Part shown: positions 3,926 to 26,719 of the stretch, piece by piece
How positions within the stretch are numbered: position 1 is the first letter of the stretch
Layout of the letters: the number at the start of each line of letters is the position of its first letter
From: Agarophyton chilense
Taxonomy: Eukaryota > Rhodophyta > Florideophyceae > Gracilariales > Gracilariaceae
DNA length: 64,000 nt
Assembly (NCBI GenBank): GCA_030374765.1
Contig: JARGXX010000016.1
Coordinates: 1,674,001 to 1,738,000, forward strand
Direction: 5' to 3'
Notes under the pieces: generated by a model
Told to the model about the DNA's origin: nothing
Seen by the model: the letters and a program-made list of their open reading frames with translations, nothing else
Database searches by the model: none
Made by a program: the position numbers and the translations under genes

Positions 3926-3928
3926 TCT

Positions 3929-3950: not shown

Positions 3951-4050
3951 TTTGGAATAATTAAACAGACCACTGGAACGAAGAATTATCCGGATTCTAA
4001 CCTTTGATTTAATTCCCCAACGGACCAGAAGTACAGAAGCAACCACCATC

Positions 4051-6188: not shown

Positions 6189-6237
6189 TGCTCGACGCGA
6201 GGCAAATCCTCCCTCTTTAAGCCCCTACTTCCACCAA

Positions 6238-7152
6238 TTGGACGGTCATGAGCCAAGGTGCTCCTCACCTCCCAATACAAAACACCCGCAATGGACCACT
6301 CAGGGTGAACCGGAACTGGAATACAGTAACGACCCTGTCTGTATCCTCGGGAAAGAGAATTACAAAGTTCGAGTAGCCGTGGGACTTCGTTCCAACAACT
6401 CTCGAGTGACCGCAGATGTATTGGACACAGGCGCTGGTCCCAACTTCGTCCATTCTAAGCTGCTCCCACTGGGTTGGCAAGATTTCATTCAGGCAAGGAA
6501 GACCCCGAGGACTACCGAGGCGTCTCGTAGACCAATGGACATTAAAGGGATAGTACCACTTTACCTCCAAGCAGGACAATTCAAAGTCGGCACGTGGTTC
6601 CTTGTATGTCCTAACTTGGGCGCTGAGGCAATCCCAGGGACCTCCTTTATCGATCGATACATTAAAGAAATTTACCCAGGCCTTAGCAAAGTCGCGTTCT
6701 ACCACGCACCTTCCGTCTCCGTATCCGGTTCCACCCCAGGGCCAGAAGCTAACCACAAACGAGCGGTTCTCTCCGAAAAAACGAAGTCCAATAAGGTTCG
6801 CCTTTCAAAGGCCATAACGATACCCCCGGTGACCCAAATCGCTTTATCGGTCCATTCCCGGTTCTCAGGTCTCGTAAAGATTCAGAACCACCCGAAAACG
6901 GTTCTGAAGCACCTTAGCTTGATGGCCAATAGAGTAATGGACATCCACCCTAACAGGCCCTTCTTGGTCACAATCAGCAATTTCAGAGATAAACCCGTAC
7001 GGTTACCTAAAGGTACAGTGATTGGCATCACTTTACCTGCGCCCTTGGCCAGCATGGAGGCCCAAATTTATAACCTTTCAACGCCAACTTCCGACGACGA
7101 CGTCGACTCTTGGGAGGGGACAGTCGCTATCGGCGCAGAATTCGAATCCTAG
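6238..7152 (+). pseudogene. Aspartic protease region of element II
   Basis: A 304-codon open frame with the retropepsin motif LDTGAGPNFV at about 6421-6450 and the second conserved block PGTSFIDRYIKEI near 6630-6670. The protease would cut Gag-Pol. The frame ends at a TAG at 7150 but continues into RT in the same frame, so a single stop separates the two domains. The piece after the protease (6700-7150) resembles the connecting region in element IV (TKSNKVRLSKAITIPPVTQI against TVSNKVRITKQVVIPPMHQI). Confidence 0.85.
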
Positions 7153-7191
7153 AAGCCCCAGATAATTCATCTCCTCAGGGAATACCAGGCC

Positions 7192-7983
7192 ATGTGGTCA
7201 GGTAGATTGGGAAAAATCAGAGCCACTACACACAGCATTGACCTTCAGGATGATGCTAGACCACAGTTCCAGCACCCATACCGTACAGGCCTGAAGGGTA
7301 GGGAAATTGTCGCCGACCAGATGGACAAGATGAGCCAACCTCATGTCATAGAGCCAGCGCCTCCAAACCAATCCGAATGGGCAAGTCACCTTTTCCTCGT
7401 GGCGAAGAAAGATGGCTCCGTCAGGTTCTGTGTCGACTACATGAAGCTGAACGCAGTACACTAGAGGGACTCATACCCGACGCCCCGCATGGATGACTGT
7501 CTGGATTCCTTAGGCGAAGGTGTCGTATTTAACACACTGAACGCTAACTCCGGATATTGGCAAATGCCTTTGGCCGAAGATGCGAGAACGCTGACAACCT
7601 TTACCACCCATGAAGGTCTTTTAAGATTTACTGGTATGCCCTTTAGTTTAAAGAATGCACCAGCAACTTTTCAACAGGTAATGGACATCAAACTGTCCAG
7701 AGTCAAATGAAAGTTCGCCCTGGTCTATTTGGATGACGTCACAATCTTCTCACAGACCGTAAAAGAACACCTTCGCCATGTGAGGAAGGTGCTAAAAATC
7801 CTACATGACGCTGGAGTAACACTGAAACTCCGCAAATGCGCCTTCTTCCAGGCCTCCGTGGAGTATCTCGGTCACGTCGTCCTCCCAAGAAAGCTAAAGG
7901 TAGCCAAATGGACCACAAATGAGATTCGCCAGTCTAACACTACCAGGACCCACACGGAACTACGATCTTTCGTGGGCTTGTGA
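7192..7983 (+). pseudogene. Reverse transcriptase of element II
   Basis: Frame-1 pieces 7192-7464, 7489-7710 and 7729-7983 are separated only by single stops (TAG 7462, TGA 7708, TGA 7981). Motifs in order: VAKKDGSVRFCVDYMKLNAV, LNANSGYWQMPLAEDA, GMPFSLKNAPATFQQVM and LVYLDDVTIFSQ. The YLDD catalytic pair is intact near 7725-7740. The first catalytic Asp, usually in TLDANSGY, is replaced by Asn (TLNANSGY). That would inactivate the enzyme even without the stops. Confidence 0.9.
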
Positions 7984-8007
7984 AACGTTTACCGACGGTT
8001 CGTCCAA

Positions 8008-8679
8008 GTGTTTGCTAAAATCTCGGCCCCTCTCACCGCGATGCTGAAGAAGGAAACATCTTCAGAGTTCGAAGCCCTTACCGACGACCAGTACGAGGCA
8101 TTTCAGACTCTAAAGGACAAATTGCTGAGCCCACCTGTATTGGCTTTACCAAAAACCAATGGGCCTTTTCCCCTGGACACCGATGCCTTTGATTTCCAAG
8201 TGGGTTGTGCCCTGCTACAGGAACAGGAGTCACCGAAGGACTATCGACCTATTGGATACTGGAGCAGAACGCTCACCAGCGCGAAGCGAAACTACAGTAC
8301 TACCGAAAAGGAGTGTCTAGCCATCGTATGGTCCGTATTGACACTCCGTCCGTACTTCGAAGGAACTAGGTTTACCACTTGGACAGACCACGATTCACTC
8401 CGCTGGATACTCAATATGACCGATGCATCAAGTTGCCTGGCTAGGTGGCGGCTCAGGCTGTCAGAATATGACTACGAGATAACCTATAAGCCAGGCATCA
8501 AGCACCAGGCAGTAGATGCCCTCTCGAGAATCATTACCGACGGAACTGATGTCACTCCATTGGACGATCTAGTTCCTATCCACTTTACAGATGAGGGACC
8601 TCAGGTTTATACGGAAACGGATGACCTTATGAGTAAAGTCCAATCGGATGATCCTGAGGTAAAGGAGAACGAATTATAA
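8008..8679 (+). pseudogene. RNase H of element II
   Basis: A 223-codon open frame with a complete Ty3-type RNase H: DTDAFDFQVGCALLQEQ, then TTEKECLAIVWSVL, then WTDHDSLRWI, then YKPGIKHQAVDALSR. The Asp, Glu and Asp catalytic positions are present. It removes RNA from the RNA-DNA hybrid during replication. It lies in the same frame as RT; only the TGA at 7981 and a short linker separate them. This is the best-kept enzyme domain of the element. Confidence 0.9.
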
Positions 8680-8826
8680 TTATTGGACTAAGAAACAGTA
8701 CCGCCCAATTCGGCACGACCTCAGGTTAATGCGATAGCCTCGGAGGAAAAAGAACTCCTCCCTATAACTATTGAAGAACTCCTACAGGCGCAGGTCGAGG
8801 ACGAGTACTGCAAGGCAACAGCCTAA

Positions 8827-9946
8827 TTGGTAGGAACCCCAGGATGCCTGTTCGACTATGACCGATTTAGACTACTATGTCGCCACTCACCGCTGGATGG
8901 CGCACTCCAACGCGTAATACCAACTTCGCTAAGGGCGCGATTCCTATACCTCGCCCATTTCCCCCGCTTGGCTGGCCATCCTGGAAGCATACGAATGTAC
9001 CAGACCCCAAGGAAGTTCTTCTACTGGCCACGAATGGCGCAAGACCTATGGCAAACCGCACGAAACTGTACATTTTGCGCACAAATCCGAGGTTCTCGCG
9101 CCAACCATCAGGCCAAATTGAAGCTCTTCCCCGCTGCAGGTCCGATGGAATTTGTCGCAATGGATATACTTCGGCCTTTGCCTAAGTCGTCCCATGAGAA
9201 ACGGTTTGCTTTGGTTATAACGGATAGGTTTAACGAACTTCCCCGAGCCCTACCCACTAGGGAAAGCAAAAGCCACGGATGTCGCCACGGCCTTCTCCTC
9301 TTACAATGTATATCCATATGGCATGACACTCTTCCTCCCCGCAGATAACGGCAGCCAGTTTGTATCCAAATTCTTCTCACACGTTTGTGCTACCTTAGGT
9401 ATCAAACATGTGACCACCACGGCGTAACACCCGCAAACCAATGGCCTAGCCGAATGCTTCACCCGCACTCTTCTGGACCGAATTGCACACTACGTATGGC
9501 AGCACCAATTGGACTGGGACGACCACGTCGAGCCACTGGTTTATGCCTACAACACGCAAGTGCAAGTTTCCACGGGGACAACCCCTTTCGATTTAACTCT
9601 AACGAGATCGCCACCGCCGATAGCTGTTGACCTTCAGGAATTTATCATATCCCAGGGCATAACGAAAGAGATAAATCGTACCATGGTGAAGCGCTACTCG
9701 CGCCGACGCATCGACCGCACTATCGAATCGGCCGGAGATGTGCTAACCAAAGCCCAAAGGCGCTACAAGGTCAATTTCGACAAAGCCGTTTGGAACACAC
9801 CGACCTTTGGGAAAGGAGAACTTGTTTACCGGGACCGGCCACCGAAGGAAAGTGAGGAACTCGAGTACACTACGCGGAAGCTCTTACCCCACTCTACGGG
9901 ACCATATAAAGTCCTTGAGGCCAATCACACACCATTACCTTACTAA
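8827..9946 (+). pseudogene. Integrase of element II
   Basis: The zinc-binding part is readable (HFPRLAGHPGS, then CTFCAQ near 9066-9083). The first catalytic Asp is in FVAMDILRPLPKS near 9160. A frameshift near 9260-9330 moves the second half into another frame (ADNGSQFVSKFF near 9340, then a stop TAA at 9425, then NGLAECFTRTL near 9440). The rest, 9509-9946, includes YAYNTQVQVSTGTTPFDLTL and the SH3-like tail KLLPHSTGPYKVLEANH. All three D,D,E residues can be found, but the frame is broken at least twice. Confidence 0.85.
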
Positions 9947-10212
9947 TTGACGGCCTACAGGACACCGTATCGATTGATCGGGTGACATGAGCCCCCAGCT
10001 CCCCAGAACCACCAAAGACTCAGTCTCCTGACCCAACGAAATCACTACGACCTCAGGTCGACGCTCAAGTCCCCACCCACCCTAAGGCAGCTACTGCGGA
10101 CCCGACTAGCACCATGGACCCGATGGTCAAAGCCAATGACGATGACCCATCTCCTCCAACCGACTCCGATGGATTCGCCTCTCTGCACCACACTCTCCTT
10201 CTGGAGAATGAA

Positions 10213-10386
10213 CACCAACCGGAATATATGCTTTAGCGCATCATCTCCGCCTGTCGGGGAGAAGATGGAACTATGCGCTATTGCGTCCGTTGGCTCGGAT
10301 ACAAACCTGAGAAAGAAACTTGGCAAGAGCCTCAAACCATTCCGGATAATTTTATCGCCCGCTATTGGCGCAGAATCGGCATGTAA
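10213..10386 (+). pseudogene. Chromodomain at pol C-terminus of element II
   Basis: Frame 1 reads RIISACRGEDGTMRYCVRWL, then GYKPEKETWQEPQTIP, then ARYWRRIG and a TAA. This is the chromodomain signature: aromatic cage residues within Y-V-R-W-x-G-Y and ETWQEP. A TAG at about 10234 interrupts it. It marks the true end of the pol gene. The next 1.5 kb is spacer before the antisense gene. Confidence 0.85.
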
Positions 10387-10639
10387 CGCAATGCGCTACT
10401 CGGGAGACCAGCTGCGGGCGGCGAGAGCTACACACAGGCAGAGCCTGGAAAGCCGGGGTCGGCTATCTGGCCTTAGAGTCAGCAACGACTCAAGAGGGAC
10501 GTCGTCGCCAGGCGAGGAGTGTCTACTAGGCACAGACTCCTATCGTTCCACAGGAGCCCTTGGCGTCCGGGAGACGTGCTCGGAGTGGTGTCGATCCGAC
10601 ACGAACCGAATTGATCGGCCTGGATATACGCCGCGTATG

Positions 10640-10945
10640 ACCAGTAGCCGGGGCGAGCCCCGGGATTGTACCAGAGCCCGGACGAGCGCCACGACCCTAA
10701 CGTCGGCAACGGCGCACCAACCACTTCACCCAACGGGTGGCGATAGCAAAGCAGGGCAAGCCCTGAGATTGTACCAGCGCTCAGTCGAGAGCGTCTGCTT
10801 GGCTATGCCAACTGGCGCCACAAAGTGGTAATCACTCACACCCAACGGGTGACGATAGCAAAGCAGGGCAAGCCCTGGGATTGAACCAGCGCCCAGACGA
10901 ATGCGCCTGCCTGGCTTTACCAGCTGCACCTGGAAGTGATACTCA
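10640..10945 (-). repeat. Three tandem tRNA-like units (SINE-like), period about 112 bp
   Basis: On the minus strand three successive units carry a B-box-like core: GGTTCAATCCC (10869-10885 region), GGTACAATCTC (about 10757-10773) and GGTACAATCCC (about 10655-10670). CACCCAACGGGTG starts at 10727 and recurs at 10839, giving a 112-bp period. The best unit (10840-10945) also has an upstream D-arm-like GTGCAGCTGGTAAAGC. They lie in the spacer between pol and the antisense gene of element II. They resemble RNA polymerase III promoter-bearing SINE heads; function is unproven. Confidence 0.6.
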
Positions 10946-11906
10946 CTTATTCGAGGCTCCCGATCCACACCTCGGTATCCAACGGATACGGGTCTACAAT
11001 CTGCTCGGGCAGTAGAACTGCCAGCGGTCCAATAGACCGAGCGAAAGTGCAATGGGCCACGCGGCGACCGATGGCCGTGAGTGCAAGGACTGGACGGGGA
11101 ATACTCGATAGGCTAAAACGCGAGAGATACCCCTGCAGCAGTTGATCAGACTGTTGCCTGTCTTGTCGGCGTCGACTGGGAACGAAGGTCCGATAACCAT
11201 ATAGTCTCAAGACACGAACTAGTAGTTCGGAGGGCCTCTCCCCTTCTTTCGGACTTTACTTCGGTATAGCCCCCGGCGACCCGGCGCTCAAGTACCGCCG
11301 GCCGCTTAGCAGTTAGCCATTACGATAGATTACAACTAATAAATACAATTAAAAATTACAAGGCAGCAGTGCAGAGCACTGTATGGTGCCAACCACACGA
11401 ACTAGCTGCCGGCCATTGCCACACGTATGACACCTAGCGCCATGCACGGTATTTCATCCTGGCAGTATGCCAGCTATTACGGCGTCGTCACTGCTTAGTG
11501 TAAGGAGGTCGGAGGAGGATGGCTTCTTGTCCTAAATAAAGGCCCGGCGCGTTGCGTCACACGGCAGCACGGAACGCACCCTTAAGGAGGGGGTAACCAT
11601 TGGCCCGAATAATACCAAAACGTCTCTCGAAATGCCTCTCGAAACGCCTCCCGACACGAAGGTTCGGCGGAGCGCAACGGTTTGCCGGAGCACCCGCATC
11701 AGGAAACAAAGCCAGTCCTCAAGTGACACCGGAGGAAGACCCGAGATGCTCTAAAGGTTGGACGCCGTCCCGGAGCACGCACATTTGAGATACAGGAGCG
11801 ACTTTGGGAAAGCACCACCATTACTCTATTGGACAAACTAACAGAAGCCTAGCAGCCCTCGGAATGACCTCAAGGTTCGCGGAAGCGCTCCCAACACCAA
11901 TAGGCC
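10946..11906. other. Spacer between tRNA-like units and antisense gene A
   Basis: No protein domain is recognised. An AT-rich core at 11335-11365 (AATAAATACAATTAAAAATT) is followed by GCAGCAGTGCAGAGCACTG. A similar AT-rich to GC-rich change occurs in the LTR of element IV (27175-27200) and near 16800. This may therefore be a degraded LTR-like fragment or the 3' untranslated region of copy A. Short open frames here are not supported. Confidence 0.35.
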
Positions 11907-14157
11907 TCACTCGGGCGGCGCAGGAGTAACTCCGTCGTCCTCATTAAAACCTGCAGGAGCGAAACCGGGACTACGGTCACCCGAGGAGCCTACTGTACGA
12001 CTAGGACCGTCCCCAGCGAGCCGAGCACGCTTCTTCGGCGGAGGTTCACCTAAAGAACTATTGTCACCATCAGAAGCCTCTTGGTCGCTCATACTTAGAC
12101 CACACCAGGCATCCAAGTCGGCAGTAGCCCTCTGGGACATCACTTGTGCATTCTGCGGCAGGATATTGACCATAGCGGTCTTCAGATCGTGACCCTGTTT
12201 GACAACTGCAGCGTAGCGCGCCGAGCGACGCTCCCAGGAGCAAGCTTCTCACAGGACTATGGCAATGTCCATCGAGGAAGTAATACCAAAGGTACGGCAC
12301 ACATGACGGAGATCCACGGCTGCAGCCCTGACCGAAGTGGGAAAATGCGGCAACGGAGAGGACTGAACGATGTAGATGCCCCCAGTGGACGTTTGAGCCA
12401 GCGCATCACCTACAAGACTTCCGGCCTCGACAGTAAACTCGCCAGGAGGGATGTCCATCTGGGCGACGGGCGGCTCATAAGAAAGTTCATCCTGAAGAGC
12501 AGCGCCCAGAGGAGCTGGAGGAGGGGAAGCGGTCGGCCACACAACAGCGGACTCGATCGTAGGACTGACGCCCTCCACGGGTAGGACGAAGGGATCTTCA
12601 CCGAAGGATTCTCCATCGGAAATCCCAGCAGGAACCATCGGTGTGGCTTCCACATCAGGCTCGAAGAACAGGGGATCGAAACCAATGGCCTTTGGATAAT
12701 AGTCCGTCACATGACGCCTCGGAATGTCCGATGGTTGAATCCTCAAAGGCTTGGCGGAGTAGTCACGAGCGTCGTCCCGACCCTGCGGATGTAGCGGAAT
12801 TGGCGTGAGCTAGTCGGTATCGTGGTAATACCAAAGGAACTCGGGAGTCTTGCCCCACTCGATCTGTTGGACATGATCCAAAAAGGCCTCGGCCTCTTTG
12901 ACGTCGAACCGGGTCCCATAAACAATATTCTGAAAGCCCAGGTTCCTTAGAAAACGGATCATAATGTCCGGGAGCGGAACTAAACGACCTCGAGGACCGG
13001 GTATGTTCTCGTCGTGCCATACCCTCCAATCCTCCGAACGGACATTACCACGAACGCTGTATTTAGCAGTATCCAGGAAGACCATAAGAGACATCACGCC
13101 GAACTGAAGGAATAGTACCCACCGAGACAACCAAGACCTTTGGTCATTATCGTCATTCATGAGTTGGGACGAATGGTACGCCACCACGGACGGCGTGGGA
13201 ACCAAAAGGAGCTGCGAGACACGCCAGTACATGGCCCATTGATTCTCATCCACACGGGGCAGCGAGAGATATAACGGAGGAAGTTTGTCGGCGCTCATGT
13301 CGTGAAACTCCACCTGGTGCCGGCAGAAGAAGAACTCCGGGGATTGACGCAAACGAACATCGTGATCGTGCATCTCGTCCCAATAGAGACTACTGGACAT
13401 CCAAAACAGGCGGTCATGCGGCGGACGGAAGCACATGATCGCCAAGAGGTTGTGACCAGCCGCAGGAAATCTCACACGAGGCGAGAGGAAGTCCGTGTAT
13501 AGGTCCGAAAGGAGTTTGTTCACTCTGAACTGGTACTCGGCTTCCTCCTAGCAGTAGACGCACGTCATGTCCGCTTGAATGAGGGTGCGACAGCGCGTCG
13601 CCGAACGCGGATGCACAGGACGATGAAACCATCGGCTATACCACGAGACGCTGCGCGCGTTCTTGCTGCCCCTCTGGAAACCGGTATCTTTTCGAACCTC
13701 TGGGCGTCGAGATACGTATGGCAGAACCTTTGGTATTCTTCCACAGAGGACAGAAGAATGGCATGACGCATTTGCCGCGGGTTCGTCCGATGGTATGGTC
13801 ATAGCGATCCCCGGGACGTTCATAAGCCACTTGGTATCACGAGGAGCTCCTCGCTTGGTCTTTCGAAGCCATGGTGCCGCTGCCCACAGGCTGGTTTGCC
13901 GGGAAATGGGTAGGAAAACCGACGGAAGCGATAAAGTCCAGGGGGAGAAAAACGTACCCGACGGGCTTATAAGGCGAGTTCGGCATTGCGCGCGACCACA
14001 ATGGGAAGACAAGATGACGGAATTGACCCGAATGGACTGACAGGCGTGATTCACGGTGGACGATGCGCAGAAGGTCTCCAAAGGAAGAGCGGAGACTAAG
14101 GAAGGCCCCTATGACTGGCAGAGGAGAAGAAGCCAGTGGACTATCTCGGCAACGCAA
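11907..14157 (-). pseudogene. Antisense accessory gene of Ty3/gypsy, copy A (unrecognised family)
   Basis: Transcribed against element II's pol. One frame covers 13523 down to 11907 with only two stops (TAG at 12810, and one at 12249); upstream parts at 13565-14157 need frameshifts. Regions shared with copies B and C: a PVGY-FLPLDFIAS segment near 13960; EAEYQFRVNKLLSDLYTDFL near 13480-13540; the motif GFQNIVYGTRFDV near 12900-12940; an acidic/proline-rich linker; and a helical part (SARYAAVVKQGHDLKTAM) near 12170-12230. The C-terminus holds a nuclear-localisation-like PPPKKRARL. I do not recognise the family. A structural or nucleic-acid-binding role is only a guess. Confidence 0.6.
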
Positions 14158-14396
14158 CGCGAGGAATACGCCGGCGATGCTTCTATGGCCAGCACTTACG
14201 GCGCGCTGGAGTTTCAGTCCTTAGGCAAATTAATTTCCGCTCCGGCGCCAATGGTCAGCTCACGCATCCTCGCATCCTTGCAGGTGATGACGACGGGTCG
14301 TCCCGTCAAGCCCAATGATACTTGGAGCAACGAAATGCTCACGTACCCTGGGTCAATCATGAGGCCATCTGGACGTCGCCGTGACAGCCGAATCCT

Positions 14397-14407
14397 AAGG
14401 AGGGAGG
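14397..14407 (+). other. Polypurine tract of element II
   Basis: AAGGAGGGAGG lies immediately before the 3' LTR start at 14410. That is where reverse transcription of a Ty3/gypsy element needs a purine primer for plus-strand synthesis. It shows that the LTR at 14410 is the 3' LTR of an element to its left and not a solo LTR. Hence copy A lies inside element II. Confidence 0.75.
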
Positions 14408-14409
14408 TA

Positions 14410-14855
14410 TTTGAAGGAGCAACGATAACGGTGGAGCCCTGTAAGCCGCCGGGGCCTGAGGTATCTCACAGACGCCACGTGGACTAGTCGAACTCAGCTG
14501 GGCTCATTTAGATTATTGTTTTATTTTAATTAGTTTAATAGATTGGCATTACAGTTCCAGGGAGCTCCCAGCGCCTCGCCATTGTTATTTACTTGGCTCG
14601 AGTGACGCTTCTCCCTTAGAGTAAGGTAGATAGCGTTAAGATACTAAATTAACCCCTCTGGTTTATTAGTTCCGCCCATTGGTCTTCAAGCCATCGTTTC
14701 CGTAGCTCCGACCTGTGGGACTACGCATTAAACGCCAGCCTATTGCACCGAGTACTCTGGGAGTGCCGCCGTCAAGGATACGAACCTTAGGACCCGCTCT
14801 ACCACGCTACCTCAGGTTGAGACCAGTACGCTGCCCTACCAGTCATTGCGTTACA
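14410..14855 (+). repeat. 3' LTR of element II
   Basis: A near copy of 3479-3925 with the same end GCGTTACA, followed by CACAC. Its first bases read TTTGAAGG where the 5' LTR has TGTGAAGG, so the terminal TG has mutated. It holds the minus-strand tRNA-like stretch (B-box region 14776-14786). The preceding purine tract and the shared flank show it belongs with the LTR at 3479. Confidence 0.88.
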
Positions 14856-14860
14856 CACAC
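14856..14860 (+). repeat. Target-site duplication, right copy (CACAC)
   Basis: CACAC follows the 3' LTR and repeats the five bases before the 5' LTR (3474-3478). Element I sequence resumes from here. Confidence 0.8.
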
Positions 14861-16601
14861 CAGGAGTGGTAGAAGGTCCTACAGAAGACCCGGAACCAGT
14901 ATTAGGAAGGTTTGGAGTGTGGTACTGTGAGCCCGCAATAGATCAATGGGGAGCAGAACCCTGAAGAGTCGGAGACAACGGTGGAAAACCTAAAAAGATA
15001 CCCGAAGCGAAAAAAGGAGCAGAAAAGGGCGAAGAGCCAGGTATGGGCATCGGCACATTACACAAGGGGTAATTGCTGGCGGAAGCCAAGAAAGAACCAC
15101 CAGTTCTGCCCATGAGTGGATCGCTCGAAGTATCCGCTTGCTCCACAGTGGTGGTAAGATCCGGGACGTGGTGCGTGACCGCCTGGTACATCCCGGTTTG
15201 AAACAGATTTCGGAAGGCAACCGCCTGGTTGATAGAGGCTATATAGTCTTCGTGACGAGGAATGAGCTGCTCGAGGAGCGCGAGAGCTTTCTGGAGGAAG
15301 CCCGGACCGGAACTGTTGAGAAGAGATACACACACGAGTTGGATCCTCAGGAACGCACCTCTAATGCCAGGATAGGTAACAGATTCACCAGCTCCAGCTG
15401 TGGTGGGAGCCACAAAGAGGGATTGTGCAGGCCCAGCAGAAGGACCAGGAGCCAAACGGAGGACATGGAAACGCGGATAGAAAAAAACCCAGCGGAACCA
15501 CCATGTGCGGGGGTCGTAATGACGGGGGTATTACATTCCAGAGTCTCTACTTCATGGGTAAAGGGCTGAGGGGATCTTCCAGTAGGATCATCGCCTGGTA
15601 ATACCCGATTCGCCTCACTGGCTAACTTCTCGAAGTCCCAGACCTCCCATCATTAGTCATTCTTCCACGGATGCGACAGGGACACATCCAGGTAAGTCTC
15701 CAGCTAGGCAACTGTGTATTTCGTACCGAAAGGAATATCATCTATACCAATCTGGCGGATGAGATCCACTGTGGAGCAAGGAAGTCGGAAGATACGACCA
15801 ACAGGTGAGAAACCATAATTGGTGATCCGAGGGTCGGAACAACGGCTGTCCCAGATAATTCTGTCGTGGGATGCAACTCTTCGGTACACCGCAGATATGA
15901 TAGGTCGCTCGAAATGGTGTTAGGAATGAAAAACCGAAACTGTGACTGACGCTTCTGAAAGTAGGCCTGTCTTCCTGGACGGAAACCATTCTCACTGGAC
16001 CGCATCGGTGGAGCCGATGGCGCGGCGCCAATACGGTGGCTGCCCCAACGATTCCATGATACAAAACCAAGAAGGATGGGATGCTTAAACTGCGAACCCC
16101 ATCCAACGATGTTGATGAGGACAGGCCAAGAAATGGCCTTCAAGTGCAGCGCATTGTGCTTCTTCGGGAGAAGATCGCAAGAGTTGGGGGTTGCAGGCGG
16201 GGCGCTGAACAAGTACGGATCGTACTTCCCGGATCCAGGAGGGAAACCAAATGCCCCACCAGGGATGGGGGATGACGAAAAAACCAGAGTGGTAACGGAC
16301 TGGCCACGACCAAGACCACGACCCCGAGAGCGGTAGCCGGTCAAAGGCTTCGAGACACCACGGCTGCGGTTCGCACCTCGAGTACCCTTACCAGGTTTGG
16401 TGGCCAACCATGATAAGTAGGACGACCGACGCCGTATTGACTCGGAGCCGAGGTCTTTATAGCCATCGACGGTAGGCTCTCGAACCCGCTGCAAACCATG
16501 ACGGTCGTGCAAGGTGTCATCGGATATGATCGAATTCTCCGTTGATTGAACGGGAAGGAACCGAAGGGACACCACCGATAAATTGAAGGGCTCGAAGCCA
16601 A
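14856..16601 (-). pseudogene. Antisense accessory gene of element I, copy B (split by element II)
   Basis: Same family as copies A and C. Minus-strand order: basic segment with SRGRGLGRG near 16310-16340; DLLPKKHNALHLKAISWPVL near 16100-16170, matching DLLKHDWPVA of copy C; VGRIFRLP then GIDDIPFGTKYTV near 15719-15800; a proline linker; LLEQLIPRHEDYIASIN and FRNLFQTGMYQAVTHHV near 15160-15300. Compared with C, about 300 residues of the middle are missing. Near 14883 it reads GSGSS then GTAGGA, the place where copy C has its GTAAGT donor. The matching acceptor and stop lie beyond element II at 3438 and 3420. Stops at about 15718 and 15670, plus frameshifts, make it a pseudogene. Confidence 0.6.
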
Positions 16602-17392
16602 AGGAAAATATTGTTTTAGGGTGTCAATTGTTGGTTGAAGTCGTCGGAGAGAGAACTCGGAGACATCAGAGTCCTTTTGTTAGAAATCTAGAACTTCCAA
16701 TACGGAGCTGAAACGTATTACTACTCGATGGTTACTAATATGTGCTTCTAGGATACTCTAATCGCTGCTAGCAGCGTTCAAAGCAGCACATTAACCAAGA
16801 AAAATATAATAACTATATTATTTCTCTTAATGCGCCATTATGGCTTTCGACGCCAGCAGTGAAATACAGAGTGCAGATCCTGCTGGCACTCCATAAACTT
16901 GCGTTCCATCAATGCTGGAACACTGTACCCATTACGGGACCCACACCCATTCCAATATTCAATGCCACTTTTGCGTGTGATATATGGCATTAAAGCATGG
17001 AAAAGTCTCTTGTCTTTTTTATGGTGACCTGGAATCCCTTGTTCACGGCCTTATCACATCGTTGGAAAAATTGTGTCGAGCTAGCAGGCACCTAGCGCGC
17101 TCGCGGACACCGTTTCGGTAGTGGCCCTGCGTGCTGGCGATTCTGCTTCTGCATAGCCCCTTTGTCTAACCAAGTTGGTGTCTCACCTTTTCCCGGTTAC
17201 TCAAACTTCGGTTCCCTCCTAGGTCCCTTCGCAGCGCCGTCCAACCTGGTCGTTCCCACTGCTCGACAACCCTTCAGGTAGTGCTGCCCATAATTGGCGG
17301 CGTCGCGACCGTAAACGTTTGTCCTGCGTTTCCCTGAAGGTTTCCTGGCTTCTCGACCTTTCAGGTTTCGTCTACCTCGTAAGAATTGACTC
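16602..17392. other. Junction region expected to hold 3' ends of elements I and IV
   Basis: No gene seen. By element logic this stretch should contain the 3' LTR side of element I (plus) and of element IV (minus), which meet tail to tail. An AT-rich block at 16801-16830 (AAAATATAATAACTATATTA) followed by GCAGTGAAATACAGAGTGCAG resembles the AT-rich to GC-rich layout of the element IV LTR. I could not find a clear copy of the LTR ends of 26741-27333, so truncation or heavy decay is likely. Confidence 0.35.
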
Positions 17393-17555
17393 TTGGCGCC
17401 GGTTGGGCCTGAGCCTGCGTCGATACAACCATTAAGGTGTTGGCCTGGGTCCGTGGTGGAAGCTTCCGGTTGTGAGACCTTATTGGTGTTGAGCGGCCCC
17501 GACGGTAATTACGCGACCTTTTTCCGGTTTTGCATTCCAGTTTACCCTCAAGGCA

Positions 17556-20100
17556 ATGACACGATCGCGCCGCCTCCGCGCACGCGTTCGAACCCATTCG
17601 GTACCACGTCGGTGCACCTCGCGCCGCAGCGTGGATTCGTCACCTATACCTCGAAAGGGTGAGTCGTGCCCACAAGCAGCACCAGCGTTCGAGAGACTTG
17701 AGATGCCGGTTACCATTGAGGTTGAAGAAGTCGGAGATTCCGAGGGGATTGATACCCCTTCAGTTATGCCTTTAAGGTCGGATTGGTCCCGTTCCACGAT
17801 ACCTCAAAGGTCTCGACCCGCTCGCGACCGCACTCTGGCCACTGTTGTACCCGTAAGGTCAGTGTTGGCACTACCGGAAAGGTTGGATCCGCTGGCCGTC
17901 TCCTCAGAACGGACCGAGGAGGCTCTACTTCAGAAGGATGAATACCCGCTGGTGTTCACTGCGGCAGTGGAGGTCGATTCATCACCTCGTTCGTCGGTTC
18001 GAGCTACGGATTTACCAACCATGTAAGGTAGCGGCCCATCTCGTGGCCGTGGACGCGGTGATATTACTAAAAGGGTGACTCGCTCGACTTTGCGAACGCC
18101 TACCAACATTGGGTTTCGCAGTATGCCTGTCCCTGCGACTCAGTTCTCCCCTGGGACTCCGGCTGGCCCGTACCAACGCAGTGGTGGACTTCCTTCGACG
18201 ATTCAAACCAATTGGGCTCACAATCTCGCGTTCGGTGCGGCGAACCGGACGACGAGTCAGTATGGACCTTTGGGTATTACCTTCGACCAGGTGACGAACA
18301 ATGACCTGTTGAAGCACGATTGGCCTGTGGCGGTGGGGCATTCGTCACTGCCGACAGCTCTTACCAGAGCACAATTGGATACCTACTTGGGTTTGTCCCG
18401 TTTGGACTGCAAACGCCTTCGCTCCTTTCCATTGCTTTGGAAGAAACGGGACCAAGAGTCTCAACCTCGTCAGTGTCAACTGGAATGTTACCAGAGTCGG
18501 CGGCGTCATACAACTTTGAGGTATTTCACCCCGCAGATATATCCGAGCGACTTGCCGTATGTGCGCATCGAACCGGAGCTGGATTATTACCGTCGATTGG
18601 TGGTGCAAGTGTGCCAGTACCCGTCCATTCCGGAGACTTACCTTCCGGTTTCACCTGACTTGGTTTCCTTGAATCGGCCCTTCACCACTATCAATTGGGC
18701 TGACCGTAGTAGGGGGGGCGAGGATGCAGCGACAGAGAGTCGCATTCGCACTCGCAACTCGTACACTCGCGTTATGCATATGTTTCATAACGTCGAGTAC
18801 TTCTCACAACCTACGAAGGACAGACGCGATTGGTACGTGCTTCGCACAGAGTGGTAGGAGTCCTATGAGGTTTCTTTACCACTGAGCGTGCCCAAACCGC
18901 CGGTCTTGGCGTACTTCGGGAGTCAGATTTCCCGGAACCTAGAGCGGTATTACCTCATTTGGTCGATTGTCCTCTCGGAGTGGACCGTATTGGTTGCCAT
19001 CCTGGCTCTGGAGGCCGCCCATTACGGTATCGATTGGGATTGTCGTAATCTCGACTCTGACATATACCGAGATGGTGTTCAACCTGTAGGTCGCATCTTC
19101 TTCATACCTCCGAGGGTTGCCCAGGATATTTCCCGATTTGGTTACGAGAACATTGTGGAGGGGACCAACTATACCGTGAAGGATTTGGACTCGTATCTCA
19201 AGAAGAGCAATAATTACAACTGGGATTCCCATCAAGGTTGGGAGGCTTTCGATCCCGCAACTTGGTAGATTGTGCCTCGCCACGCCCAATATTACCCCGG
19301 GGAGCCTCCTGTTCATGGAGCTCCCGCGAGCCCCGAACCTTATCAAGGTACTGTGGAGACACCGGTTGGTCGTTATGCTGGTCCCTTCCCGTCCGAGCCG
19401 TTACCTCAAGGTCGTAAGTCGCCTACCCCTACGGGTGTGACTCCTACTCAACCGAGTTCCTCGCGGGTTGCTGGTCCGGTTCGACCTGTGTTGGCGGGTT
19501 TTGCTCGTCCTCCGCCTCAACCTATGATGGATTCTCCGGCCGTGGTCGATTTGCTGGCTCGAATTCGCCAGGCTTGCGTCACCCACTATCAGAGAGCTGG
19601 TCCTACCTCCTTGGTTGCTGCATTAACGCTCCTTGAAGGTTTGCTGCCGCGCCATGCGCAATACATGAAGGCGCTGAACCAACTTGGTGCGTTCCGGAAT
19701 AAGTTCCAGTTGGACATGTACCAAATGGCCACGCGTCAGGTTGCCAATCTTACAAGCGTATCTGCTGCTGCGCCATCTGATCCTTTGACGGATCCCCTTC
19801 TAGATACAAACTTGAACCCTGTGGTTTTGCCTTTTGCTCCGGCGGTTCCTTTCGTTCATCCTCTTTTGGTTTCGACTCCTCTCCCCGGTGGCGGGGCTAC
19901 CGCTCCTTTACTACCTCTTAGGTCGATGGCCCCTAGCATTTCCCCAGGTTTTCCTCTGGGGGTAGTCACTAACACGGGTCCTCCTGATTCCATTGCTCCT
20001 AACCCGACAGGTTCTTCTGTAAGTAAATCGTTGTCTCTTGTTGTGTCCTCTATTGTTATATTTGGTTGTTTTTTCGTGTCCTCCCTTGTAGGTAATCTGA
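17556..20100 (+). pseudogene. Antisense accessory gene of element IV, copy C, with 3' intron
   Basis: Runs against the pol of element IV. One single frame spans 17556-20018 with three stops (TAA 18024, TAG 18855, TAG 19266). Order: basic and acidic N-terminal part; SRGRGRGDITKR near 18040; TFDQVTNNDLLKHDWPVAVG near 18270-18330; PELDYYRRLVVQVCQYPSIP near 18575-18630; the LERYYLIWSIVLSEWTVL helix near 18940; GYENIVEGTNYTV near 19140-19180; a long proline-rich linker; LLEGLLPRHAQYMKALN and FRNKFQLDMYQMATRQV near 19630-19740; a proline-rich tail. An intron (20019-20091, GTAAGT to TTGTAG after a pyrimidine tract) splices after GSS, followed by Val-Ile-stop at 20100. The family is unrecognised. A spliced gene inside a retroelement is unusual. 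Confidence 0.65.
20019..20091 (+). other. Predicted 73-bp spliceosomal intron in copy C
   Basis: Donor TCT|GTAAGT and acceptor CCTCCCTTGTAG|GTAATC, with a T-rich stretch between. It is phase 0. Splicing gives a stop two codons later, whereas reading through adds a hydrophobic tail ending at 20156. Copy B has the same exon end (TCTTCT) with a mutated donor. Confidence 0.6.
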
Positions 20101-20181: not shown

Positions 20182-20541
20182 TTAGCCGTCTGCAGGCATC
20201 GGCTCCTTGCAACGGCGCCAATACCTGATACGGAAGTGTGGGGGAATTGCGGCTGGGGGTTCGAGGGTGTCCCCTTCTGGGCCCCAGCCGTACCACCTGA
20301 CGGTGTACTTTAGACCATTGTAGGTTAGCTTGTGGCCCACCAGACGGTCAACGGGAAATTTCTCTGAGGTTTGGTCCTGATCTTTCCGGGGAACGCCACC
20401 TCGACGGTTCATATGTTCCGAGTTGGGAGCTTCGTTTGTAAGAGCCGGGTCAGGAGCTCCGGCTGTTACCGTGTGCGGTTCCATTTCCGTCTTTTTTAGA
20501 GGGTTGTAATCCGAATCATCCCGTTTTAGTTCATCATTCAC
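20182..20541 (-). pseudogene. Chromodomain region of element IV
   Basis: A 119-codon open frame ending with LVGHKLTYNGLKYTVRWYGW, then GPEGDTLEPPAAIP, then FRIRYWRR. Cage-type aromatic residues are present, so the chromodomain itself appears whole. The N-terminal 60 residues are an acidic/proline linker from integrase. It is frameshifted from integrase (20543-21307) with abutting ends. The stop at 20182 is only about 80 bp from the stop of antisense gene C, so the two genes converge. Confidence 0.85.
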
Positions 20542-20542
20542 C

Positions 20543-21904
20543 TCAATTGGGGGTGGGGTCCTCCGAGGGGCGAGTGCGCAGAGCTACCGGTCTCGGCTCT
20601 CGGGCTGAGGTGCCCGCCTCCATGCGATGTTGAACCGTTTCAGGTGCTACCGTAATACGGTCAATTGATATCGTATTCGGTATTCCATCTTGGTCAACCG
20701 TAACGGTGTGGTCTGATGCGTTCAATACCTTATACGGTCCCACTGATTTGGGTAGAAGCTTCGAATTGATATCTCCGTCAATAGCTTCATCGTCTGCTTC
20801 ATCACCCGGTCGTGGTATTTTACCTGAAGGTGGGTTGTCTATGTAGACATATTGTCCCGAAGATACAGAGACCACTTTGGTTACCGTACGATCGTATTCG
20901 GCCTTGTACCGCTTCTGGGCTGCAGTGAGCCGGCTCTTTGCATGTTTGAGAGCCCTCCTCAACCTCACAAGGGTATTCCGCTTGACCTGGGCAGGGGTCA
21001 GTGCGCCAGCTGCAGTGCTGGTGGTATGATATCCCTGCACTACAATACCTGGGGGGTGTCGCGAAAGAACCAAATCAAAGGGAGTGGTCTGCGTTGACCG
21101 GTGTACCTGGAGGTTATAGGAGTAGGTGAGCGGTAGCACCAGCTCATCCCACCCAGTTTGGTGCTCTTCCGTATAGTGTCGTAGCCTTGATACCAAGGTG
21201 TGGTTAAAGCCCTCGACCTGTCCGTTCATCTGCGGGTGGTAGGCAGTAGTGTAATAGTGCTTGATACCCAAGTGGTTACAGACTGCTTCGAAGAAATTCG
21301 ATGCCAAGTTTGAACCATTATCGGTAAGTAGGTACAGTGGTGCACCATACGGGTAGACCCAACGCGATCGCCAGCGTGGTTTACTTCGTCTCCTTTAAAG
21401 GTATCGCTCTCGTGAGCTTCGAGAACCTGTCGGTGGTTACTAGAATGTGCTGATACCCGTTCTTGGTCTTGGGAAGTGGTCCTGGAAGGTCTATCGCAAC
21501 AAACTCCAGCGGACTCGCTGCTGGAAACAGCTTGAGGTACTTTCGATGCTTTCGAATACCACCGCGGGTACGAACACAAGATTCGAATTGACCTACAAAG
21601 GTATAGACATCATGGGCCATATGGGGCCAATAGAACTGTTGCCTCAAGGTGAAATACATCCTGGTGGCACCGGGGTGTCCCGATAGACGTGGGTGTGCGC
21701 GGGATACAAGACTCTCGGGCGCAGTGCCTTCGGAACCACCTTTTGAAGGCTACCATCCAAGGTTGACCTTCTCACGATGTACCGATTGTGCTCCACATCG
21801 AATGGTGATCCTTTGAAACCAATATAGTCAGCCAGGGTTCTGTAGTACGCATCCTGGGCCTGCTCTCGTAGAAATTCCTCTCGGGTTACGGGCATGACGT
21901 TCAT
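20543..21904 (-). pseudogene. Integrase of element IV
   Basis: Pieces 21904-21644, 21659-21381 and 21307-20543 in three frames. Visible: FYWPHMAHDVYTFVGQFESC (end of the HHCC region), FVAIDLPGPLPKTKNG (first Asp), TDNGSNLASNFFE (second Asp, near 21320) and NGQVEGFNHTLVSRL (Glu, near 21235). The D,D,E set is complete, unlike element I. The C-terminal tail includes KLLPKSVGPYKVLNASDHTV. Frameshifts near 21640 and 21350 make it non-functional as it stands. Confidence 0.87.
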
Positions 21905-22370
21905 TTACTCTAGGGTCAGTATCTGCGTTGCCATGTCGGTGTTCCGCAAGGCACCTTCTTCAGGTAAGTCCCAACATCCTTCTAGGTGTTCGCCGGTACC
22001 ACTTTGGTTCGATGACACCAAAAAGCAAGGGATATCATCGTCCACCGGTTCGGTCTCTAACCCTGAGGTGTTTAAGCGTGACATAGCGTCAGCTATGTTG
22101 GGCTTGATACCTGGACGGTACTGTACGTCGTATTCAAACTCCGACAGTCTCAACCTCCAACGGGAAAGTCTACCAGACGCATCTGCGAGTCCGATGATCT
22201 ACCTTAAGGCGTCGCGGTCCGTGCGCAACGTAAAGCGCTCATCATACAGGTATGGACGGAGCATCAACATGCTCCACACTACTGATAGACATTCCTTCTC
22301 GGTTACCGTGTAGTTCTACTCCGCCTCATTCATAGCGCGGCTCTGTACCCAGCGTGTACGGTAGACATGT
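21905..22370 (-). pseudogene. RNase H of element IV, internally deleted
   Basis: After the RT end (ILALP, stop at 22371) the sequence goes almost at once to SRAMNEAE, then NYTVTEKECLSVVWSMLML, then LRTDRDAL, then LSRWRLRLSEFEYDVQYRPG and IADAMSRLNTSGLETEP. The segment holding the first catalytic Asp (DTDAxDxQVGC in elements I and II) is missing, a loss of some 30 codons. The enzyme would be inactive. Confidence 0.8.
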
Positions 22371-23474
22371 TTACGGTAACGCTAAGATTGGTGTCGACAA
22401 CAGCGCTCGTTTCAATTCCTCAAAGGTATCCATTTCGTCGTTCGATAGATTCTCAAACCGTTCAGGTTCACCTTTCTGGAGCTTCTTGTTCAGGGGAGCC
22501 GCTATTTTCGCGAATTCCTTCACGAAGCGACGATAGACGTTACACAAACCTAAAAAGGATCGTACGTCTGTCTGGGATGGTGGCAAATCGACCTCCTGTA
22601 CGGCTCTAATGTTGCTCGGCGCAACCTCTAGGGTACCAGGGCCTATGATGTGGCCCAGGTATTCAACCATTCTGGTAAAGAAGACGCATTCGCGTAGCTT
22701 CAGCGTCACCCCCGCCTCAGCTAGGAGGGTTAGTACGGTGCGTACGTGAGCAAAATGCTCTTCTACCGATCTGGAGTAGATGATTACATCATCGATGTAT
22801 ACCAAGGCGGTTGTCCATTTAACCTTCGAAAGGATGATGTCCAGCGCCCTTTGAAAGGTGGCTGGAGCATTGCGCAACCCGAAAGGCATCCGCGTGACGC
22901 GAAACAAACCTGCATGGCACGTGAAGGTCGTTTTGTTTCGTTCTTCCTCACATACGGGTACCTGCCAATAACCACAATTGGCATCCAACGTGGTAAATAT
23001 CTGCGCATCTCCCAAGGAGTCGATCCACTCATCCATTCTAGGTATCAGGTACGAATCCCTGATGGTTACGCTATTGAGCCTCCTGTAGTCCACACAGAAC
23101 CTCATATGGTTATCCCCTTTCTTCTGAACCAGAACCACGGGACTAGCCCAATCTGAGTTGGCTGGTTCAATTACACCTTATTGGAGCATTCGCTCCACAT
23201 CTTTGAGTTCTACCTCTCTCGCCTTCGGACCTGCACGGTGTGGTTGTTGATAAATCGGCTTCGAGTGATAGAGGAGCTCAATGAGATGCTGTGAGGCCTT
23301 AATTTGGCCCAGATGGCCTGAACTCATGGTTTCGAACTCCTCCAGAAGGTCGATAATACGGTACCGCAGTTGGCCGTTTACATCACCGATCTGGACTGTA
23401 TCTTGCCATTGCCTCTCAGGGTCCGGTTCTTCTTCTTTTTCTACCGATGCCTTATCGGTTACCTTCGCTTCCAA
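22371..23474 (-). pseudogene. Reverse transcriptase of element IV
   Basis: One frame over 23474-22371 with a single TAA at 23178 between DVERMLQ and GVIEPANSDWASP. Motifs: VQKKGDNHMRFCVDYRRLNS, FTTLDANCGYWQVPV, RMPFGLRNAPATFQRALD, LVYIDDVIIYSRS and VEYLGHIIGPG. The catalytic Asp in TLDAN and the YIDD pair are intact. Converting one stop would restore the domain, so this RT decayed recently compared with element I. Confidence 0.9.
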
Positions 23475-23595
23475 GTTGGTATTTATCGATACCTTTGTGG
23501 TTGTGGACGCATTTGTGCACCCCCTTCCTTACCAAAGGCGACCTCGCCGAGATCAGCGTGAGCTACGGTGAATACCCTTTGTGGTGCCGGTAGTG

Positions 23596-24360
23596 CTATG
23601 CCAACATTGGTATTTTCGGCAACTTCACGTCATGACTGCTGAAGTTGCTGAGACACACCTTAAAGGGTTGATTTGGGATGTTGTCGACAATCCCGTTGGC
23701 CGTCAAGGTGAGGTGTCGATGTGCTAACCTCGGATGGTTTTGTAGTATTACTAGCCCGGGGGTCGCACACGACACCGGTACCAATATTTGGTGCATTGGC
23801 GGGATAACAACCTGTTTGGTAATGCGCACTTTGTTGGAGACCGTTTCGGTGGATATCTTCTTCTTCGGTTTGAAGAAACATCCCCGTTTGGTTTCCGTAT
23901 TACCTAAAATGGCGATTCGTCCCCCCTGATGTAGGGCGACGGTAGGGGAACCAGGAAGGATTGCTTTGACATGTCTGTCAATGAAGTTCGTACCTAGTAG
24001 GCAGTCTGTCGGTAAACGGTCGACAACAAAGAATTGCAGTATTACCTTGAGGTGTCCAAGCTGCACCACAGTGGTGAGCATACCTCGAAGGTTTAATGGG
24101 CGCTCATTTGCATCCACCAGCCGGTTGTTGTCGGGAGGTCGGCTCAAGTTCCGAAATACCGCCTCACGTATGACGCGGGAGTTCAGGACGTTCGGGCCAG
24201 CCCCCGTATCCAACAAGCAGGTGACCGGAACCGCAAGGCGATCGGAGAAACACATTGAATCACGTACTTTATAGTTGTTGTACTTCATATGACAAACCGG
24301 AACTGGTTGTGACGTATTCTCTTCCACCTTCACGGTTCTGGGCATCGATTTGCCTTCCAA
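23596..24360 (-). pseudogene. Aspartic protease region of element IV
   Basis: A 254-codon open frame. The retropepsin motif LLDTGAGPNVLNSRV is near 24170-24215 and the second block LGTNFIDRHVKAILPG near 23960-24005. The start and end do not define the mature protease, which would be released from Gag-Pol. The downstream linker KVRITKQVVIPPMHQILVPV matches element II. It is frame-shifted from RT (different frame, about 120 bp gap). Confidence 0.85.
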
Positions 24361-24399: not shown

Positions 24400-26295
24400 T
24401 TTTCCTCCTGTAAGGGAGGGGTTGAGTCCAAGTTTGGTGTTTCCTCGATGGTATTGACCTGTACTGATGTACGGGGTTGGAACCTATTTGGTGCTTGCGT
24501 TGAAGACCCGTAGAGGCGTTAGTGATTCTGCATGCGAGCCTGAATCAACTGGTCTCTCATCCCTGGAGATAAGTTAGCGCAATTGTTTGCCAAATGGTCT
24601 GTCGCGAGACAGAACCAGCGAACGAGGCCTCCAGTTTGGGGGTCTCGCGTTAACATTTAGGGGGGCTTCGAAACCTGGTTGGTAGGAGCAGTGGCGTAGG
24701 ATGTGGGTGGCGAGTTATAGGAGCTCGCCCCCTGCATCCTCTGCGAGCTCATCGCACTTGGCGGCGATAATACCGTGTTAGGTGTACGCGTTGACGAACG
24801 ATTTCCTACCGTCGACGGTTTTGAGAACCGCTCCTGGGTCGCTACCAAGTGGATAGCGGTTCCTGTAGGTACTTCGAGGTGCGAGCTACCCTCTGAGGTT
24901 ATGGTATCTTTAATTTCCAAGACCGACCTTTTCGGTTTATCCTTCGAGGTTGGAGGCATGACTGGTCTCTTTCCCAGCCGAAGGGTATCTCCAAGTCCCT
25001 GGGAGTACCAAGCCAGCCCATTGTAGTCTACCTTTCGGTTAGTGGCCAGGTAATTTCGTACCTGGGAACGGATCGCTTTGTCGACATTGTCGGCAAATAG
25101 CGACTTTAACCTAGAGGTAGTGAACACATTACCAAAACGGGTTGCCAGATTCCAAAGCGCGAGCGAAAAATCCGGTTCGGTTTTCCCAGACCTTTGATGG
25201 TAAGCGAGGACTTCCGAGTAAGCCTCTTGGATAACCTCATCGGTGGCGTATGTTTCCAAAAGGAAATTGACCATCTCTGGGTATGACTACAACATCTCTG
25301 TGCCATCCTCATCCATCGCTAAGGTATTGCCGCGGAGCCTACCCTGCAGCAAGTAGTATGCCTGTCCTTTAAGGTAAAACTGAAATAGCCACATAGCAGC
25401 GCCCTCGGGAAAACCATTTTGGTCACATGTAATCTTGAACTTCTGTAGAAACTCAATCACCGCAATAGGATCCGTACCTGTGAAGGTTGTGTCACCCATT
25501 TCGAAGCTGAGCTTCTTGTGGTGCTTAGTAATCTTCTGAGCGACCTCTTTGGTGTAATTCAGAAGACTTGTTGATCAACCGATAAGTCCTGTAATCAACC
25601 GCTTTGGTGAACATATAGTTCAACGGTTGGTGCACCTCCAGGTCTATTTCGGTGTCCGACACAGAGTCGGGCGACTCATTGTATCGCTTTTTACCCTTAC
25701 GGGTCTTTTTCGATGACTTTTTAGTCGACCTGTTTGGTTTCTTCTTCTTCTTACCTTTAAGGTCATCATCCGACGATGAACTAGTATCGGAACTGGAGTC
25801 TGACGAGTCGGGGTCTGTATCATCCTCTCGATTCTTTCCCCTCGTCGTCCTACGCTTCTTCCCTTTTCGGTTTCTTCGGCGCTCATCCAACGAGTCAGAC
25901 GAATCGTCCTTGGGACCACTTCCATGGGTGTCCTTTTGAACGAAACCAGTAATTGGTGGCAGATAGATGTCTTGAGGATCTACCTTCCCCGGGACCTCTT
26001 GACTCTGCCTTGGACCTTGTAGGTACTCACTATCAGTAGATAAGTGTTTGGAATGGGTGGAATGACCGATTTGGAACCCTTGTGGTATGCGCTTTGCGAT
26101 GTTCACCTGTGTAGGTCGGGATTCTGTGAATCCCTCGGAAACCCAAAGGTCCTGCACAGCACGGTAAACATGCTCCCTAGCATCTGTTAAGAGACACTGT
26201 TTCACCATTTCAGGTATCCTGTCTGCTAGCTCTTGAGCTGATCGGTCAACCGCAATACGGGTAGATGCATGGACGTCCATTGAGGGCGGAACCAT
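24400..26295 (-). pseudogene. gag of element IV
   Basis: Three pieces: 26295-25525, 25499-25287 and 25274-24657, with a degraded tail to about 24400. The N-terminal piece holds a long Lys/Ser/Asp-rich stretch (DSSDSSSDTSSSSDDD then KGKKKKKPNRS) near 25690-25830. The capsid-like part is helical (IAVIEFLQKFKITCDQNGFP; VNFLLETYATDEVIQEAY), aligned with gag of elements II and III. A knuckle-like WFCLATDHLANNC near 24580-24620 keeps C-x4-H-x4-C but has Arg where the first Cys should be. Confidence 0.8.
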
Positions 26296-26719
26296 CCGGG
26301 TATCCGACTTCTCCTTTAAGGTTAATGCATCCTCGACCGCGAGGGAGACGAGCGCTTTCGCTCGCTCTTCGAGCTGAGACTATAGCTCATCCGCTGCAAC
26401 CTCAAATGGTAATTCCCCTTTGAGGTTCCGTTGCCATAGGCGGCGGACCATGTACCTTTACGGTTTTGTCTCGAGGGTGCCGGAGCAGCTCCTCGGGGTT
26501 TTCCAGAATCGGCTGAGACGATGAGGATCCTTTAGGACCTTAATGGCTTTTCGGGGCGCTCGCACCACGCGTATTCCTTTTAGGTCGTTCCATTTGTGAC
26601 CAATAGTGGTATCCTGTATTGATTTGCGGGATTTCCTGAAACGAAATAGGTATAAGAGTGTCCAATCCTTCTCGGAACCTCGTGTGAACCGTGAAGGTAC
26701 GACGAAACCTAAAAATAAT

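Follow-up and report, generated by a model that had tools for sequence, protein, structure and literature searches.

We analysed a 64,000-nucleotide stretch of the genome of the red alga Agarophyton chilense (contig JARGXX010000016.1, positions 1,674,001 to 1,738,000, forward strand; hereafter the window), in which three Ty3/gypsy chromodomain retrotransposons, termed elements I, II and IV, are each accompanied by an open reading frame (ORF) running antisense to pol. These antisense ORFs (aORFs) are designated B in element I, A in element II and C in element IV (Table 1). An earlier note on this DNA had described them as copies of one accessory gene lying between pol and the 3' long terminal repeat (LTR).

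The motif sets that had been listed as common to A, B and C are all present in the sequence, and direct alignments of the proteins are significant. A and C share 24% identity over 289 columns (BLASTP E 1e-15), and a profile-profile comparison aligns 246 columns (E 4.7e-9). The window piece of B matches C with a BLASTP E of 1e-17, and a B-type core taken from another locus (L071) reaches 43% identity with C across 256 columns (E 1e-64); the match of this core to A is weak on its own (21% identity, E 6e-6). When the window piece of B serves as the genome query, B-type copies rank first, followed by C-type copies from 1.4e-16 down. Judged by these alignments, A, B and C are a single protein family.

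Intact copies elsewhere in the genome provided references for the C type (L011 and L014, 666 codons each) and, in the parts used, for the A type (L045, 683 codons; L042, 656 codons). With L045 as tblastn query, aORF A is recovered in three stretches (13989-13780, 13783-13646 and 13811-11916, the last 69% identical) and is interrupted by in-frame stops and by a change of frame close to its start. aORF C aligns with L011 over 664 codons at 85.5% identity (18021-20012), with in-frame stops present, and its end in Table 1 adds two codons taken from the length of L011. aORF B is found with the C protein at 16131-15775, 15901-15542 and 15437-14976, and its approximate start is placed by an RGRG stretch (L069). 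The loci, strands and homology proposed in the earlier note are thereby upheld, with the corrections that B is a decayed fragment, that A and C carry in-frame stops, that the ATG of C aligns at 18021 and not at 17556, and that alignable sequence of A begins at about 13989 and not at 14157. Upstream of the C ATG (17493-18020, plus strand), the frame is open in some intact copies, with open frames of up to 876 codons, and one A. chilense gene model (P0001) starts upstream of the C-type ATG position.

Table 1. Coordinates of the retrotransposon features and antisense ORFs in the window.
Feature	Position	Strand	Basis
aORF A, antisense accessory gene of element II	11907..13989	-	tblastn with intact L045
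Conserved core of aORF A, 245 codons without interruption	12813..13547	-	ORF listing and searches
aORF B, decayed antisense accessory gene of element I	14943..16380	-	tblastn, BLASTP and RGRG stretch
aORF C, antisense accessory gene of element IV	18021..20018	+	tblastn with intact L011
Element I pol, reverse transcriptase to chromodomain-like end; element II lies between this pol and aORF B	253..3318	+	Alignment
Element II, Ty3/gypsy chromodomain element	3479..14855	+	LTR pair, ends, target duplication, pol domains
Element II integrase C-terminal part, convergent with aORF A	9428..9946	+	Pfam rve_3, below cut-off
Element IV pol (protease, reverse transcriptase, integrase, chromodomain), convergent with aORF C	20185..24360	-	Pfam
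ORF in gag position of element IV, unlike the aORF	25528..26379	-	Sequence comparison

Element II is delimited by LTRs at about 3479-3925 and 14410-14855, which are 88% identical over 445 nt, and by a 5-bp target duplication (CACAC at 3474-3478 and 14856-14860). Its pol includes RNase H and integrase zinc domains and a chromodomain-like end (10273-10374). In element IV, the reverse transcriptase (RT; RVT_1) and the gag-asp protease exceed the Pfam cut-offs, with rve and Chromo (E 2.7e-4) below them. Taking the three elements together, each of RT, RNase H, the integrase zinc domain and protease passes its cut-off in at least one of them, and all matches to rve, rve_3 and Chromo fall under the cut-off; the chromodomain region of element IV aligns with those of elements I and II. 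No LTRs of elements I and IV were identified within the window. The claims that A lies antisense in the plus-strand element II, and that C runs against the pol of element IV, which is on the minus strand, were confirmed.

Two further observations concern the family of element II. The 5' part of a second member, 85% identical over 4.4 kb, lies at 57131-61553 (plus strand), with an LTR at 57132-57575. Within element II itself, the spacer between pol and aORF A holds a duplicated stretch of about 110 nt (10727-10947; 83-86%), and plant Retand elements are also described as having tandem repeats in this region (PMC11963269).

Convergent arrangement with pol across the genome

The arrangement was derived from coordinates alone in searches of the 79.8-Mb genome (135 contigs), in which only the best candidates were scored (150 of 379, 150 of 771, 137 of 3265, 150 of 2636, 150 of 290, 140 of 329 and 150 of 1066 in the individual searches); the pairs reported below refer to these best-scoring pieces. 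C and the element IV integrase form 69 pairs at up to 10 kb, of which 66 are convergent, all but one of the 66 (65/66) under 3.5 kb and mostly 563-582 or 664-676 nt apart. Among 48 pairs of A with the element II integrase at the same distance, 41 are convergent, with 40 of the 41 under 3.5 kb and 39 of these at 1.56-1.78 kb. For B and the element I integrase, 45 of 46 pairs within 13 kb are convergent; an integrase lies within 3.5 kb of 41 of the 67 B loci, and in 39 of these 41 the distance is 392-704 nt. All lineages together, 152 of 163 aORF-integrase pairs converge within the search distance. Cross-lineage pairs are rare and never convergent (0/3 for C with the element II integrase, 0/3 for A with that of element IV). 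The expectation that homologues would lie antisense and 3' of pol in many Ty3/gypsy elements is therefore borne out.

The window copy of B is 11,805 nt from the element I integrase piece. Because the excess over the usual spacing equals the 11.4-kb length of element II, we conclude that element II is inserted into element I between pol and aORF B, as had been suggested when B was assigned to an interrupted plus-strand element.

Counted from the integrases, a convergent C aORF is listed within 5 kb for 77 of 137 element IV copies (using two C pieces), with one copy otherwise arranged; the two C queries together give at least 180 distinct C loci. An aORF partner is listed for 40 of 62 element I integrases and an A piece for 40 of 150 element II integrases (none for 110); like the count for element IV, these are lower bounds from the best pieces. 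Counted from the aORFs, no integrase partner is listed for 85 of the 150 C pieces or for 110 of the 150 A pieces. Such missing partners are expected, because only the best candidates were scored. The earlier note had named host genes or another transposon class as places where homologues would speak against its proposal. Neither was seen among the paired copies, and every homologue that could be paired is paired with a Ty3/gypsy integrase; the sequence around copies lacking a partner was not read.

The place between pol and the 3' LTR is seen directly in element II of the window, and the integrase spacing agrees with it in all three lineages. In addition, in 5 of 10 A-LTR pairs within 10 kb, the LTR is on the 5' side of the A piece at a distance of less than 900 nt. 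Three related chromodomain Ty3/gypsy lineages thus carry the aORF tail-to-tail with pol; the note had rightly seen more than one lineage but had counted two. Integrase identity is 50% between elements IV and I and 45% between IV and II, and the corresponding RT values are 49 and 59% (two stretches) and 55%. By integrase, element I is accordingly nearer to IV than element II is, as it is for the aORFs, but RT does not clearly support this order, and we therefore make no claim about the branching of the three lineages. On three contigs, some pairs of matches in opposite orientation with equal or near-equal scores lie about 6-12 kb apart (for example C95:131491/136933, C3:49547/61157 and C120:136534/147112), which suggests inverted duplications in the genome or the assembly.

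Coding frame and selection on the antisense ORF

Selection was assessed with 17 C-type and 13 A-type loci (reference included) that cover enough of the gene, drawn from 30 loci of each type; as best-scoring copies, they are biased toward the window's own subfamilies. The antisense frame contains no majority stops over 666 (C) and 683 (A) codons, compared with 8-33 in the other five frames, and its shared changes fall at third positions (12/5/40 for C, 15/17/97 for A). This six-frame test ruled out a chance ORF or the reflection of a sense gene. Individual copies carry 0-5 (C) or 0-8 (A) in-frame stops.

Low ratios of replacement to silent substitution rates (dN/dS) had been anticipated. The raw pairwise medians are only moderate (0.65 for C, 0.41 for A), probably due to the decay of most copies, and purifying selection is apparent in the shared changes. 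Changes private to one copy look neutral, with replacement/silent counts of 524/197 for C and 679/289 for A (N/S 2.66 and 2.35); under neutrality, ratios of about 1.9-2.0 would be expected for transitions and of 4.0-4.2 for transversions. In contrast, changes common to at least three copies number 18/39 for C (N/S 0.46) and 32/97 for A (N/S 0.33). Changes present in exactly two copies have ratios of 2.56 (C) and 1.26 (A). For the integrase of the same C loci, the ratios are 3.07 for private changes (215/70), 1.43 for two copies and 0.77 for three or more (17/22), and the shared changes of the aORF are hence at least as constrained as those of integrase. Fisher tests of private changes versus those shared by two or more copies, counting all single-step minor codons, give p values of 5e-4 (C), 1.6e-17 (A) and 6e-5 (integrase).

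From the silent bias of the shared changes and the lack of majority stops in the antisense frame alone, we conclude that the aORF is a real protein gene, which was selected while the elements were active and is now decaying in most of the copies read. This selection and the convergent place also support the proposal of an accessory function as opposed to chance capture. Upstream of the C ATG, changes common to at least three copies comprise 7 replacement and 8 silent ones, and selection is unclear there.

Candidate functions of the protein

Our principal reading, with a probability of about 0.95, is that the aORF is a genuine accessory gene of about 670-680 codons, situated tail-to-tail with pol before the 3' LTR in three lineages, whose protein has been kept by purifying selection for element propagation. 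The gene was probably already present in the common ancestor of the three lineages, and recombinational exchange could account for its distribution too. Its transcription would most likely start at a putative antisense promoter within the 3' LTR or adjacent to it. Its product may be a nuclear, nucleic-acid-associated regulator of the element, like the antisense protein HBZ of human T-cell leukaemia virus 1 (HTLV-1) or the nuclear gene23 product of maize Grande. A nuclear regulatory role is tentative, and we favour it because of the analogy with gene23 and the TRP28 proteins of Retand, together with the PPKKR tails and RG-rich starts described below. Gene, ancestral presence and putative regulator combined form the explanation that we consider the best overall, with somewhat better than even odds.

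A-type tails carry PPKKRxRL, which we take to be a nuclear-localisation-like motif. Among 30 loci scanned, a loose pattern that misses more diverged tails matched 17 tails, of which 15 contain PPKKR and two (L042 and L046) look like duplicates; a further match, in L049, does not represent the tail. C-type proteins begin with an RG-rich basic stretch in 19 of 30 loci (21 matched, with L015 and L025 unrelated), and B-type proteins have RGRG near the start in 6 of 10 loci (8 matched, with L073 and L077 unrelated).

Several observations weigh against our reading or parts of it. Same-strand pairs occur for A (7/48) and C (3/69). For C, changes in exactly two copies look neutral (87/34), and a stricter test restricted to biallelic columns is not significant (p 0.16), compared with p values of 8e-7 for A and 0.014 for integrase. 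Transitions make up a larger share of the changes common to at least three copies than of the private ones (39 to 18 versus 351 to 370 for C), and some widely shared changes may be recurrent; their N/S values are still well under the expectation for transitions. With respect to the protein, the nuclear-localisation-like and RG-rich motifs occupy opposite ends in different lineages, and the core includes a conserved hydrophobic stretch (mean hydropathy 1.4-2.5) as a membrane protein would. Structure prediction, which according to the note might reveal the fold, returned nothing usable: the AlphaFold2 model of the A core failed (7 rows, predicted local distance difference test score (pLDDT) 37).

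The alternative that survives best, which we nonetheless regard as unlikely, is a structural protein, such as a second capsid or a helper of gag with a part in packaging or escorting the element. The AlphaFold2 model of the C carboxy piece (5 rows) is all helix at a pLDDT of 60, a weak model by which the carboxy end is probably helical, and the RG-rich start could bind RNA. However, the aORF has no similarity to the gag-position ORFs of elements IV and II, for want of which a second gag was ruled out. Nor did the proteins yield a significant Pfam domain (scans at E up to 1 and 5) or a relative in a PDB sequence search (best E 0.46 and 0.85). Three matches fell short of the Pfam cut-off and were attributed to chance, namely TB2_DP1_HVA22 (window A core, E 0.003, missing from the intact L045), Phage_holin_2_3 (L011, E 0.22) and DUF5575 (one member of alignment A1, E 0.32).

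Slightly less probable still is an envelope-like or membrane-targeting protein anchored by the hydrophobic core stretch. Such stretches stand at matching positions in two C copies (hydropathy 2.04 and 2.47) and two A copies (1.82 and 1.36), and one is visible by eye in the B-type core of L071. Nevertheless, hydropathy reveals a single stretch, with an acidic residue inside it in most copies, and none of the top-ranking stretches is a hydrophobic start; in C the protein begins with a basic stretch, and the uncertainty of the true start codons limits any reading of signal peptides. The envelope-like ORFs of plants, moreover, lie behind pol in sense orientation (PMC7264820), from which the aORF differs in being antisense.

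We consider it improbable that the aORF is a passenger, that is, a host gene or other mobile element captured once and not needed by its carrier. Its origin is not placed by the protein searches, and many listed pieces have no listed integrase partner, as a passenger might lead one to expect; yet its fixed place in three lineages and the integrase-like constraint on its shared changes argue otherwise. We saw no active lineage that keeps the aORF merely as a decaying pseudogene, although no systematic search for one was made. The least probable alternative, that the antisense RNA itself silences or tunes the element (a role discussed for plant elements; PMC7264820) and the ORF is incidental, is largely contradicted by the avoidance of replacement changes in the antisense frame and by majority stops in the other five frames, although the RNA may act additionally.

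Known antisense genes, novelty and neighbouring features

Plant and fungal retrotransposons are known to carry antisense accessory genes, the function of which is not settled (PMC7264820, PMC11963269). The note had likewise mentioned such ORFs 3' of pol in some plant gypsy elements and in certain retroviruses; examples are Grande, Retand and HTLV (PMC7264820, PMC11963269). The gene brtn of the Boty element occurs in Botrytis cinerea and also in Sclerotinia sclerotiorum (PMC8365987, PMC7264820, PMC4227169). Like the aORF, it is antisense between pol and the 3' LTR of a chromodomain Ty3/gypsy element (PMC4227169, PMC7264820); we set it apart by its fungal host, the brtn sequence itself being outside the comparison.

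The plant genes known as aORF-3R, found in Retand (with a TRP28 domain, PF04195), RIRE2, Grande (gene23) and PvRetro13, occupy the same antisense place (PMC7264820, PMC11963269). Maize gene23 has a nuclear product and its own promoter, and the TRP28 proteins of Retand are predicted to bind DNA (PMC7264820, PMC11963269). The aORF differs from these genes in that their hosts are plants, that Retand belongs to a non-chromovirus lineage, and that PF04195 matched none of the aORF proteins scanned with Pfam (E up to 1 and 5). PF04195 also gave 0 matches in the genome, in a search whose controls were silent too. HBZ and APH-2 of HTLV are nuclear proteins from antisense genes at the 3' end of a retroelement (PMC11963269), with an antisense promoter in the 3' LTR (PMC7264820); they are retroviral, and we liken them to the aORF by arrangement and not by sequence.

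Searches of 5.8 billion proteins, in which roughly 8000 candidates sharing most words, or 1481 candidates, were scored, listed among their matches only four A. chilense gene models (P0001-P0004), which show 55-82% identity to the first of the genomic copies aligned in A4 and A5. No fungal protein was among the matches listed from the best candidates scored. A viral source was also considered, and none of 74 pattern matches in viral contigs was confirmed. Our literature search, in whose scope most subscription papers did not fall, returned no title that concerns an antisense ORF of LTR elements in red algae, and the available parts of PMC10388701, which describes an A. chilense (Gracilaria chilensis) assembly with 66% repeats, and of PMC12502185 make no mention of one. 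The suggestion that the family looks new therefore stands for the protein in the collections searched, but not for the arrangement, which is known from brtn, gene23 and the TRP28 genes. As far as sequence comparison indicates, the protein is not recognisably any named antisense gene product, and its place is that of the known aORF-3R genes. A stronger proposal, which we put forward with rather less than even confidence, is that this is a previously undescribed family confined to red-algal chromodomain elements and needed by them, with an origin independent of the antisense genes of plants and fungi.

If this proposal is true, antisense regulators would have come to occupy the place between pol and the 3' LTR convergently in the Ty3/gypsy elements of plants, of fungi and of red algae, much as in retroviruses of the HTLV type. 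Red algae are a further eukaryotic group with an antisense accessory gene, here in three lineages and some hundreds of listed copies. These copies provide an internal test of selection, in which old shared changes are set against young private ones and a working protein is told from an incidental frame, and the question of a convergent regulatory niche becomes testable.

Two other regions of the window were noted. At 51107-53069 (plus strand), two overlapping ORFs of 387 and 305 amino acids, with no Pfam match at E 0.01, read like the reverse transcriptase of an unusual retroelement, perhaps a DIRS-like one. Between the elements, at 28187-42903, lie host-like genes for an enoyl-CoA hydratase, an IBR-domain protein, a PQ-loop protein, an OGG1-type glycosylase, a DUF3727 protein and a TB2/DP1/HVA22 protein.

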